DNA from: a virus
Virus record (IMG/VR): IMGVR_UViG_3300009545_000014
Span: 1-37,879 of that record
DNA: 37,879 bases
Direction: 5' to 3' (one strand)
Both the position numbers and the translations under genes were made by a program. Shown piece after piece: positions 19,143 through 21,786 of the stretch (its first letter is position 1; each line of letters opens with the position of its first letter). Below the pieces are notes generated by a model. The model made no database searches. It had not been told where the DNA came from and saw only the letters and a list, made by a program, of their open reading frames with translations.

Positions 19143-19622
19143 TTAAATTACAGCAGCGCTTTTACGCGTGCTAAGTAGGTTTCTAATAGCTGTATCTTGC
19201 GTTAAAGCCTGAGCTTGCCAGAATTTAACAGCCAGAGTAGCATTTTGGGCCAACATACCACTATAGTATGGGTCACGATAAATTAAAGACATTGTACCAC
19301 CGTTTTGGTTAATATGGGTGATAGCTTGTCTACCAACGACTGTATTGTAATAAACGTCATTACCAAGAGCTGAAGTTTGTCTTGCAACTGGAGCTTCAGA
19401 ACTTGTTAAGATACGTATGTTAAATACTGAACCATATTCAGTCTGCAAAGCAGAAAGATTAGATCCATAGTTCCATTGGTTTAAAAATCCTTGTCCTGTC
19501 AAAGAATCGAAATCAGACTGAAGTTCAGTTGAACTAAGCATGAAGTATGCGCTTCTTACAGGACCTGTACCAAACTTCAGACTACCTTCGATACCGCTTT
19601 CAAATTTGAAAGCATTATTTGT
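19143..19622 (-). CDS. Major capsid protein, exon 3 (C-terminal 159 aa)
   Basis: Reads TNNAFKFESGIEGSLKFG... to the stop. The start of this exon follows a G at the 3' end of intron 2. Without splicing, the upstream frame hits an in-frame TAG inside the intron. Within the exon, SAYFML, DFDSLTGQGF and IRILTSSEAPV match the C-terminal pattern of N4-gp56-family capsid proteins (conserved Y-x-x-x-x-x-D-x-x-x-L, then an R-I/V-x-x-S). An internal ATG (SAYFML region) would give a spurious 132-residue product. Confidence 0.75.
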   Translation of the reverse strand, partial: TNNAFKFESGIEGSLKFGTGPVRSAYFMLSSTELQSDFDSLTGQGFLNQWNYGSNLSALQTEYGSVFNIRILTSSEAPVARQTSALGNDVYYNTVVGRQAITHINQNGGTMSLIYRDPYYSGMLAQNATLAVKFWQAQALTQDTAIRNLLSTRKSAAVI

Positions 19623-19799
19623 CTATCTATTACTTGTTGACCAATGTAAAACCGATTTACATGGGCGGGCTAGTCTTCTCAGCTAACCTCTCTATGTTTC
19701 CATAGAGTCTAGAGCACCGCATCATGCTTTCGCATGTCTTTCCGCTTGCTACGTTCACGCTGCAAGAGCAAATAGCTCAGCTTGCGCCTTGTTGTCTTC
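19623..19799 (-). mobile_element. Group I-like intron 2, short, without ORF
   Basis: The minus strand reads from GAAGACAACAAGGCGCAAGC to a 3' end TCAACAAGTAATAGATAG. These ends match those of intron 1 closely (ACAACAAGG-GCAAGC and TCAACAAGTAATAGAATG). The middle has a CTCTATG-GAAA-CATAGAG hairpin with a GNRA loop, as expected for P8 or P9. The 3' boundary is set by frame (ACA AAT AAT). The 5' boundary, after the T of GGT, is inferred. The 19-bp palindromic repeat (copy 2) lies inside it at 19644-19662. Confidence 0.6.
19644..19662. repeat. Palindromic repeat copy 2, inside intron 2
   Basis: ATGTAAAACCGATTTACAT: the same 7-bp stem as the other three copies with a slightly different loop. Its place near the 3' end of a group I-like intron, where peripheral hairpins occur, may mean the element can tolerate insertion there or serve as a splicing helper. 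Confidence 0.75.
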
Positions 19800-19916
19800 A
19801 CCATTACGTGTTAAGAGTTTCAAGTCCATCAGGAAAGATTTATACTCGACACACATTTTATCGAGTGTTGTAGCAACTAAAGAAAAGTCTGCTACGCCTA
19901 GGTTTGTAGGATTATC
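19800..19916 (-). CDS. Major capsid protein, exon 2 (39 aa)
   Basis: A 117-base exon that reads from DNPTNLGVADF to LLTRNG in the same frame as both neighbouring exons. It lies between two introns whose 3' ends align base for base. The Asp at its start follows the intron 1 3' G (AATG|GAT). The exon joins the helical part of exon 1 to the NNAFKF segment of exon 3. The exact 5' ends of both introns are the least certain part. Confidence 0.7.
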
Positions 19917-21013
19917 CATTCTATTACTTGTTGACTTAAATCACCCAACCAACTATCATTCTAGTATGATTAAAAGTACCGATCTTGCTTACACTGCTGG
20001 CTATATTGACGGAGATGGATGTTTCTACATTGATAAAATCTTTGTAGAAAATCGATTTAAATACCGTTGTTTTATGGCTATAAATTCTACTGAAATTGAA
20101 AATCTTCAGTGTATTCAGAGAACTTTCGGAGGAACTTTGACTTCCAAACCAAGTATTAAAACAGGTCATAAACCGTTGCATCGTCTTATAATAAAAGGAA
20201 AGAATCTTGAAATCCTTAAGGAAATTCAGCCTTTTTTGGTTGAAAAACTTAATGAATTTGAAGTTTTCGAAAAATTTAGAGATCCAAAAAACAGAGAACT
20301 TAGAGACCAATTGATTGATGAGATGGAAATTTTTAAAAAACAATCCAACATCATAAAGGTTTCTATAAAAAAAGAAGTTGAATCTTTTAGAAACACAATT
20401 GATCCAACAGAAGAAGATTTTGCCTATCTTGCAGGGTTTATCGATGCTGAATGTTGTCTCAACATCAATAAAAACAAACCTAAAAATAGACCTAATCCTA
20501 CTTACAAAGCTCTTTTGCAATGCAACAACACTAAATCCCCATTTTTTTATTGGGTTTCCAGTAGATTTGGAGGCCAGTTTCACTTCATTGATAGAAGTAA
20601 ATACATTAACCACAGAAATCAAATGTGTTGGAGACTTTCTGCAAACTCTCTCTTTAAAATTCTCGAAAAAATTTACACTTTCCTTATACATAAAAAGCCA
20701 GTTTGTGAAGAACTTATTAATTTTTGTAAAACAATTGTCCCTCTTGAATCTGTCATAAGCAGGAATAGTCCAAACTTTGGACAATTTTACAAGCCTATTA
20801 TGGAACAAAGAGAAAAAATATTTCATAAAATTCAAGCCCTTAACAAAAAAGGATGTTAATTTAAGCGGGTGGTCATTTCTGCCACCTCTGCATATTACTA
20901 TGCAGACTCGACTATCGCATACGTTTAATAAAACGTCCCTTGAACTTAGTCTGTCAGGCTGCACGAATTAAATAATTCTGCTTGCCCCTTGTTGTCCTTT
21001 ACAGCTTAATTTA
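19917..21013 (-). mobile_element. Group I-like intron 1, carrying a homing endonuclease gene on the opposite strand
   Basis: About 1,097 bases. The minus strand begins TAAATTAAGC, so unspliced translation stops at once after exon 1 (LPLAA-stop). Near the 5' end are ACAACAAGGGGCAAGC, then a GTGCAGCC segment, CAGACTAA (R-like) and GATAGTC (S-like), the complementary P7 strands of group I introns. The 3' end is TCAACAAGTAATAGAATG. Between the core and the 3' end lies a LAGLIDADG gene in antisense. Boundaries follow from frame and from alignment with intron 2. Confidence 0.7.
19966..20859 (+). CDS. LAGLIDADG homing endonuclease (297 aa), antisense within intron 1
   Basis: Two LAGLIDADG motifs: TAGYIDGDGCF at about residues 10-20, and LAGFIDAEC at 155-163. 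The first acidic residues are intact and the second motif ends in DAE instead of DGD/DAD. The length fits two-motif monomeric enzymes that cut long target sites and spread their intron. The gene is on the plus strand while the intron and capsid are on the minus strand, so it is not translated from the capsid transcript and needs its own promoter. The upstream frame stays open to 19789, but that part is capsid exon 2 read backward. The start at ATG 19966 lies just inside the intron. Confidence 0.85.
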   Translation: MIKSTDLAYTAGYIDGDGCFYIDKIFVENRFKYRCFMAINSTEIENLQCIQRTFGGTLTSKPSIKTGHKPLHRLIIKGKNLEILKEIQPFLVEKLNEFEVFEKFRDPKNRELRDQLIDEMEIFKKQSNIIKVSIKKEVESFRNTIDPTEEDFAYLAGFIDAECCLNINKNKPKNRPNPTYKALLQCNNTKSPFFYWVSSRFGGQFHFIDRSKYINHRNQMCWRLSANSLFKILEKIYTFLIHKKPVCEELINFCKTIVPLESVISRNSPNFGQFYKPIMEQREKIFHKIQALNKKGC

Positions 21014-21499
21014 AGCAGCAAGTGGGAGTTCCAAGTCAATCATCGAGGGTTTTACAACAGCAATACCTTTACCGTTGGTACCTGCTCCAGCATTAATTTG
21101 GCTAGCAGCTGATACAATATAGTCCCGTAAAATTAAATCCTCAGCTTGCCTCATGGCTACCGCTAAACGCTCAGATACCCAAGCTAATACACCTTCCTGA
21201 TCCTGGATAATGACTTGTTCGTTAATGATACAGCCAGTACCAAAAACAGCCATTTGAGCATCAATAATATCTCTTTGAGGAACTTGTGCAGGAGGATCAA
21301 TACCAGAGTTACCAAGTTGTACAGTTGGAGGCTGAAGAGCTCTAGGTCTCATAAAACGATATGTAGTACCGCCATTCATTGGCATACTTGACTTATCGCA
21401 GATTGTAATATAATTCATACCAGGAGTTGGCACGTATAACATTCCAGGCGCAAGCGACTGCAATATCATCGGACCCAAGTTACCTGTGGTCGTAATCAT
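21014..21499 (-). CDS. Major capsid protein, exon 1 (N-terminal 162 aa; N4-gp56-like)
   Basis: Principal shell protein of the head. Spliced, exons 1-3 give 360 residues with no stop. The residues VSERLAVAMRQAEDLILRDYIVSA (about 113-136) fit the spine-helix region of N4-gp56-family HK97-fold capsid proteins. ATG 21499 is preceded by GAGGTG; a GTG three codons upstream is the alternative. Exon 1 ends LPLAA, after which a TAA is met in the intron. The scaffold gene is upstream (22142) and head proteins are downstream, as expected. The family call is by eye, not by search. Confidence 0.75.
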
Positions 21500-21660
21500 G
21501 AATAACACCTCGAATAAGGCATTAATGTGACATGTGATCGGGAGACGAACCTAACTACATCTATTCTCGAGCATGTCTATTGAAAGGTGCGAATCTTTCT
21601 AACGCGAATTGCTCATAACGCAGAGCTTACGTAATTTCTTTATACTTATTCTTTGATTTC

Positions 21661-21679
21661 ATGTAAAGCGGATTTACAT
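21661..21679. repeat. Palindromic repeat copy 3, left arm of a large hairpin
   Basis: ATGTAAAGCGGATTTACAT. It is the exact reverse complement of copy 4 at 21695, so the two can pair along 19 bases around a T-rich 15-base loop, and each copy can also fold on itself. Confidence 0.85.
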
Positions 21680-21694
21680 TACGATTTTTTTTTG

Positions 21695-21713
21695 ATGTAA
21701 ATCCGCTTTACAT
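21695..21713. repeat. Palindromic repeat copy 4, right arm of the hairpin
   Basis: ATGTAAATCCGCTTTACAT, identical to copy 1 at 16839. Together with copy 3 it lies in the leader of the capsid transcript. Confidence 0.85.
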
Positions 21714-21786
21714 TGGAGAAATTCTTTCATTTTATTATCGAATTCTTCTTATATTAAGGGGACAATATCTTTTTCATTAGGATGTT

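Follow-up and report, generated by a model that had tools for sequence, protein, structure and literature searches.

Why should a virus carry two insertions in its capsid gene, and what becomes of the protein that is made when they stay in the RNA? These questions are raised by the IMG/VR record IMGVR_UViG_3300009545_000014. The window, by which we mean the whole 37,879 bases analysed, is one closed viral contig with a 123-base terminal repeat, with genes for a portal of the P22 type (Pfam E=1e-53) and for a large terminase. We find that the capsid gene lies on the minus strand, which an earlier note on this DNA had left unstated, and that it is divided as follows:

21499-19143, minus strand: capsid gene, three exons with two introns between them
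21071..21499, minus strand: capsid exon 1, 143 codons, ending ..GAGTNG; joined to exon 2 in uninterrupted relatives
19917..21070, minus strand: intron 1, assigned to group I, 1154 nt; junctions set by relatives, 5' exon ending in U and intron in G
19860..19916, minus strand: capsid exon 2, 19 codons (DNPTNLGVADFSLVATTLD); from relatives and spliced alignment
19623..19859, minus strand: intron 2, assigned to group I, 237 nt; junctions set by relatives
19143..19622, minus strand: capsid exon 3, 159 codons plus TAA, starting TNNAFKF; from relatives and spliced alignment

Judged from comparative sequence analysis, it seems probable that both introns fold and excise themselves so that a 321-aa capsid protein can be made, that the nuclease encoded in intron 1 serves homing, and that the LAA tails of fragments translated from unspliced RNA act as a degron.

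Relatives of exon 1 in IMG/VR number 239, of which 80 were fetched; the records compared are given here as L numbers. About 60 uninterrupted relatives read straight through both junction positions, and in most relatives exon-1 residues 1-143, the block DNPTNLG..VATTLD and exon 3 are contiguous. Splicing in silico followed the rule that the 5' exon ends in U and the intron in G, and gave a single best solution per junction in most genes; the terminal G was demanded by the search and was satisfied together with the best-scoring protein. An alternative downstream 3' site of intron 2 reached an equal alignment score and was set aside since it would delete conserved residues, and 5' splice sites near GACTTGG, our initial guess, were dropped because the relatives fixed the junctions elsewhere. 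The spliced product of 321 aa is identical to the uninterrupted L003 protein at 272/321 positions (85%) and is otherwise undamaged. The best match of the L003 protein is phrog_1357, a major head protein family (E=4e-17), and a Pfam scan of an uninterrupted relative returned only PF25209, below the cut-off. Blast found no close relative of the capsid or of the intron-1 nuclease among 50,697 phage records. An AlphaFold model of the capsid, based on 16 close relatives, had a mean pLDDT of 28.9 and was left unused.

The earlier note had thus correctly seen three blocks of one capsid gene that are joined at phase 0 and separated by two related insertions. Its block sizes of 162, 39 and 159 codons give way to exons of 143, 19 and 159, and its 360-residue protein to one of 321 aa: the first two blocks were too long because in-frame intron translation up to the stop had been counted as exon. 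The segment ACAACAAGG-GCAAGC is indeed common to both insertions; taken there for their 5' end, it proves to be P4/P6 inside the ribozyme core, and the 5' splice sites lie 75 nt (intron 1, after ..GAGTNG) and 64 nt (intron 2, after ..VATTLD) upstream of it. The common 3' end AACAAGTAATAG and the reading of CAGACTAA and GATAGTC in intron 1 as P7 both stand. As an additional outcome of splicing, skipping of exon 2 is possible, since the frame would be kept and 19 residues lost; exon skipping has been reported for phage Twort (PMC3073962).

What kind of insertions are these? We built a structure by hand from 29 compact introns, comprising P3, P4, P5, P6, P7, P8, P9 and P9.1, and used it in place of a poor structure that RNAalifold gave on the untrimmed alignment. 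In these 29 introns standard pairing is seen in 98.0% of pair cells (75.7% in shuffles), both-side changes occur at 27/35 pairs (18.3 in shuffles), and covariation reaches 0.605 compared with 0.177; 0/500 shuffles attain any of these measures. P7 is paired in 100% of cases, and the P3/P7 pseudoknot is among the covarying elements. P3 alone occurs in 63 combinations of strands, in which on average 6.8/7 positions pair, vs 4.9 after strand exchange. P7 comes in the variants GACUA/UAGUC, GACUU/AAGUC, GACUG/CAGUC and AGCA/UGCU, the first and last of which are those of the window, so that the P7 of intron 2 is compensatory relative to that of intron 1. P2 is missing from the family structure; P1 is present in 137/145 family candidates. 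A covariance model built from this family, R1, matches the two introns and nothing else within the window:

21056..21076, minus strand: P1 of intron 1, exon AACGGU (21076-21071) with GCUGUU (21061-21056), U.G at the splice site; from sequence
20864..21053, minus strand: core of intron 1, P7 GACUA (20951-20947) / UAGUC (20914-20910); R1 E=5e-26, 106 bits, and covariation
19844..19866, minus strand: P1 of intron 2, exon ACUCGAU (19866-19860) with GUCGAGU (19850-19844), U.G at the splice site; from sequence
19664..19842, minus strand: core of intron 2, P7 AGCA/UGCU (about 19750-19747 / 19716-19713); R1 E=5e-27, 109.9 bits

The training set of R1 included intron 2 and excluded intron 1, and both introns were matched with E ~1e-26. 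Because the uninterrupted relatives are contiguous and R1 finds both introns and nothing else, the insertions cannot be ascribed to chance. P10 pairings can also be drawn by inspection, without a control: UAUU (21065-21062) of intron 1 with GAUA of exon 2 (four adjacent pairs) and UGU (19853-19851) of intron 2 with ACA of exon 3 (three adjacent pairs). With P1 and its U.G at both 5' splice sites, omega-G and the covariation of P3-P9, the earlier proposal of group I introns in a capsid gene has gained ground, and the structural evidence supports assigning both insertions to group I. R1 thereby reveals a widespread family of phage introns that Rfam does not detect.

What would happen if such an intron were not removed? 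When the exon frame is read on into the introns of the window, it continues to the following tails:

21011..21070, minus strand: in-frame tail of intron 1, KGIAVVKPSMIDLELPLAA-stop (TAA 21013-21011); exon frame read on
19755..19859, minus strand: in-frame tail of intron 2, KMCVEYKSFLMDLKLLTRNGEDNKAQAELFALAA-stop (TGA 19757-19755); exon frame read on

The tail of intron 1 (19 intron-coded residues) ends ..DLELPLAA and that of intron 2 (34 residues) ..AELFALAA, with the stop in the P5 loop of intron 1 and at the end of P6 of intron 2, in both cases before P7. Among 97 capsid introns whose frame was fixed by capsid homology, translation goes beyond the P3/P4 strand in 76; in the other 21 it halts earlier or runs in another frame. 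Of the translated tails 49/76 end in Ala-Ala (37 of them in LAA) and 70/76 in Ala or Ser, compared with 0/21 Ala-Ala endings in the same frame of the untranslated introns (Fisher p=2e-8). A wider set gave Ala-Ala in 48/79 translated vs 3/47 untranslated introns (p=4e-10), and in this set Ala-Ala-stop is written in 17 codon combinations with all three stops used; the remaining two frames of these introns have it in 6/153. The position of the stop varies (P5 loop, end of P6, P1 loop in L270) while the ending stays constant. Phase-2 insertions have 19 rather than 18 nt before P3, and because of this one extra nucleotide they stay in frame as well. RNA structure accounts for the KxxLIDLE part of the tails (P3, J3/4, P4), not for their ending.

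The endings resemble a known destruction signal. For recognition of the ssrA degron by ClpXP nothing matters more than its terminal Ala-Ala, and for GFP YALAA is sufficient and LAA alone is not (PMC7652416). LPLAA and FALAA of the window present a C-terminal Ala-Ala on a tail of at least about 5 residues, and as the window tails of 19 and 34 residues are long enough, a degron is feasible on length. Some tails of the family come still nearer to ssrA: ESYEYALAA, EVYDYALAA and EQYALAA, as well as TYEYALAA (L251), SYEYALAA (L265) and VYDYALAA (L284). In L270 (EQEALAA) and L374 (YTLARAA) the tails are encoded within an enlarged P1 loop. Two mycobacteriophage introns also end in alanine, TAAA-stop in the LittleE capsid gene and AAAAA-stop in a BAKA tail gene (L397 351-2592; L398 1-1500), in a GC-rich genome, which makes alanine common. 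Splicing of both is proven according to an excerpt of PMC3706429. The LittleE intron is likewise group I-like with an antisense LAGLIDADG ORF, and its splicing was established by RT-PCR there; unlike the window, LittleE and BAKA have one intron per gene, and the excerpted text does not mention a tail.

We propose the following course of events. On the late capsid transcript two ribozymes would fold. The internal guide of each would form P1 with the last bases of the exon before it and P10 with the first bases of the exon after it. To judge from junctions and structure, each intron would be excised by two guanosine-initiated transesterifications, and the spliced mRNA would give the 321-aa capsid. 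From the sequence it follows that a ribosome on unspliced RNA would pass the 5' splice site in frame, stop before P7 and release a fragment ending in LAA. Such a truncated capsid is a potential assembly poison; probably the LAA tag marks unspliced fragments for degradation by the host's ClpXP or a like protease, which would remove it. As in ssrA/tmRNA tagging and other Ala-Ala ClpXP degrons (PMC7652416), (Y)ALAA would stand at the C-terminus of an incomplete protein, with the difference that the putative tag here is encoded by the intron and not added by tmRNA. Group I introns may carry an in-frame stop soon after the intron begins (PMC3073962). The early-stop class of the window family does so too, whereas most introns here delay the stop and add an Ala-Ala tail. 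We found no precedent for an intron-encoded degron in the open-access literature. Taken together, this looks like a built-in safety device at the protein level that has not been described before.

Several findings weigh against this interpretation. The Rfam group I model (RF00028), a covariance model of the kind with which the earlier note had suggested checking the fold, matched neither the window (E up to 10) nor the related loci, and Rfam scans at gathering and relaxed thresholds gave only matches far below gathering, none of them group I. Since the Rfam model misses the whole family, group I membership rests on the structural definition, a match to RF00028 being a means of detection and not a defining structural feature. 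As to the degron, 14/76 translated tails lack a terminal Ala (8 of the 14 end in Ser), and that the tag is not general can be seen from the classical intron of T4 nrdD, whose ending is ELT. The introns are related, and tail counts are thus not independent. A tree of 67 cores, with the tail columns left out, implies at least 11 changes of frame status and at least 21 of the Ala-Ala ending; independent pairs never run in the wrong direction, and with 2-4 of them on supported branches p is 0.125 or more.

Could the ending be a by-product? All introns of the family share ancestry, and in many of them GCAGC(C/G)UGA belongs to the 3' strand of P6, so that RNA structure or shared descent might be what maintains GCAGC-T[AG]A, with the peptide itself serving no function. 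We regard this as unlikely, given that the untranslated introns of the same family lack the ending, that synonymous codons and all three stops are used, and that most Ala-Ala endings lie in the P5 loop outside any helix. It is more improbable still that the tails make a functional shortened capsid isoform, such as a regulator, scaffold or decoy. In favour of this, the tails keep the exon frame and often reach a good length (18-34 residues), but the same ending occurs at about 32 cut points and in other genes, which leaves no common isoform, and the P3/P4 RNA strands set much of the tail sequence.

Where did the two introns come from? The earlier note had suggested that one gave rise to the other. 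They are homologous and only 57 nt apart, as a local jump within the gene would predict; their cores, however, are 61% identical, and each has nearer relatives in other phages. With intron 1, an L328 intron at the same site shares 87% identity and an L050 intron at the intron-2 site (type-1 core, site 162) shares 85%, and the nearest relative of intron 2 is an L136 intron at the intron-1 site (85%; type-2 core, site 143). From the L050 and L136 matches it appears that the two core types swapped sites, with new guides, in other phages. Local duplication within the window gene is not indicated, and derivation of either intron from the other by a local jump seems very doubtful. That the gene is a decaying pseudogene whose insertions are never removed is hardly credible given the 272/321 identity without other damage and a structure that covaries across 29 introns.

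Two introns in one gene are less unusual than the earlier note supposed. Their spacing is 19 codons rather than 39, relatives carry up to five in the gene (L321: four full and one mini, from a reading of exon matches), and about 32 distinct sites in the 320-codon capsid gene are used across the family, sites within 1-2 residues having been merged by hand. A comparable gene of Staphylococcus phage Twort reportedly goes by the name orf142. It is called orf182 in the excerpted text of PMC3073962, where three introns in it are credited to Landthaler & Shub 1999; as here, several related group I introns lie in one phage gene, but gene and intron lineage differ, and the present family adds its many capsid sites and Ala-Ala tails. 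In Bastillevirinae phages, too, up to three group I introns per gene are described, in polymerase, terminase, nrd and thymidylate synthase genes, most with nuclease ORFs and found by existing models; unlike in the window, the gene families that the excerpt lists do not include capsid genes (PMC11878797).

Intron 1 also carries a gene of its own:

19969..20859, plus strand: LAGLIDADG homing-endonuclease-like ORF, 296 aa, antisense to the capsid gene and inside intron 1

It matches Pfam LAGLIDADG_1 (PF00961; E=2e-8, 35.7 bits vs a cut-off of 23.1) and phrog_5046 (E=5e-32), and its nearest relatives (41-58% identity) are also antisense to their introns or capsid genes, where strands were compared. 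Most likely the nuclease spreads intron 1 by cutting intron-less capsid alleles. Matches to a promoter for the antisense gene were not above the count expected by chance. Small sense ORFs were noted in peripheral loops of introns in L072 (6538-6983), L001, L018, L046, L076, L078 and L112; they often start GGGGCAAGATTATG and run into the ribozyme core, and one is DUF551 (Pfam, above cut-off).

Some relatives, though not the window, carry much smaller interruptions in their capsid genes. These mini-introns are insertions of 29-47 nt (59 nt in one of this kind, in L109) that break or stop the frame. They lie at reference residue 87 (TTCGGT|..|ACTGG) and at least three other sites:

Mini-introns at site 87: L106, L218, L285, L290, L399-L404, L406, L408
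Mini-introns, second group: L236, L328, L348, L409-L413
Mini-introns, third group: L213, L221, L234, L241, L244, L277, L297, L380
Mini-introns, further records: L321; L279

Each has a short loop, a P10 guide, a P1 guide and then 14-29 nt ending in G, without a core. In 30 distinct cases P1 has a mean of 7.1 pairs (3.3 shuffled, highest 4.0) and P10 of 5.3 (0.7 shuffled, highest 1.3); as the search patterns required part of the guide at three sites, these figures describe the class and do not prove it, and the same layout had first been seen without such patterns. The pattern-found mini-introns at site 87 all (12/12) have a length of 2 mod 3. Ribosomes on unspliced RNA would thereby be shifted into a different frame of the downstream exon and finish with LAA or LVA, which also speaks against Ala-Ala as a by-product of RNA structure. 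At the second site 8/8 end in Ala-Ala, and a stop follows immediately at the third; unspliced endings at the first two sites are LAA, LVA, MAA, IAA or CAA/AAA. As L091 and L202 have a full-length intron at site 87, mini-introns likely arose by loss of the core. That insertion of L202 and L091 contains a tandem, partly duplicated core.

How could an intron without a core be removed? The full family core is present in 19/19 searched mini-intron records and in 0/2 records of uninterrupted relatives, and a full-intron motif follows 41-185 nt downstream of the mini-intron in 23/28. We tentatively suggest that mini-introns, which retain P1 together with a strengthened P10, might be removed by the core of a neighbouring full intron on their transcript, in cis or in trans, and that their unspliced fragments might be destroyed through LAA degrons; service by a neighbour's core is at once the least secure and the most novel point of this study. 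The abstract of PMC6155759 presents natural group I introns as splicing in cis. In spliceozymes an engineered group I core likewise excises a short core-less intron in trans (PMC4094466); there the guide is in the ribozyme, whereas in the natural mini-introns it is in the intron. Translational bypassing of the mini-introns was set aside: at site 87 the take-off codon is not matched by the final triplet of the insert, and bypassing gives no reason to expect P10 pairing.

Group I introns are usually seen as limiting damage by efficient splicing and a stop codon just inside the intron. If the degron reading is true, a selected degradation tail would add to this a second layer, damage control at the level of the protein, and would help to explain how an intron is tolerated in one of the phage's most abundant proteins. 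If mini-introns do rely on a neighbour's ribozyme, nature would here have moved from self-splicing some way towards splicing by a shared catalytic RNA; such a transition has been invoked for the origin of the spliceosome.

Contigs of the window type have been placed in MAG bins of Parachlamydia, Parachlamydiaceae, Bacteroidales, Patescibacteria and Pseudomonadota (L333 of 39,844 bp, L386, L377, L328 and L348); Chlamydiae make up 2/5 of the MAG-binned relatives, the binning of free phage contigs being doubtful. Near capsid residues 80-95, L181, L377 and L315 have 1-2 nt insertions after ATCGAT in otherwise intact exons, shared by separate contigs, with a compensating 1-nt loss further along the exon in L181 and L377. 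The capsid frame is shifted in L219, L255 and L282 by a net gain of 4-5 nt near residue 115, a place at which introns occur in other relatives. Two hairpins like TGTAAATCCGCTTTACA (window 21660-21715) lie upstream of the capsid start, and a similar hairpin occurs in a peripheral stem of intron 2 (window 19650-19672) and in the L072 intron.

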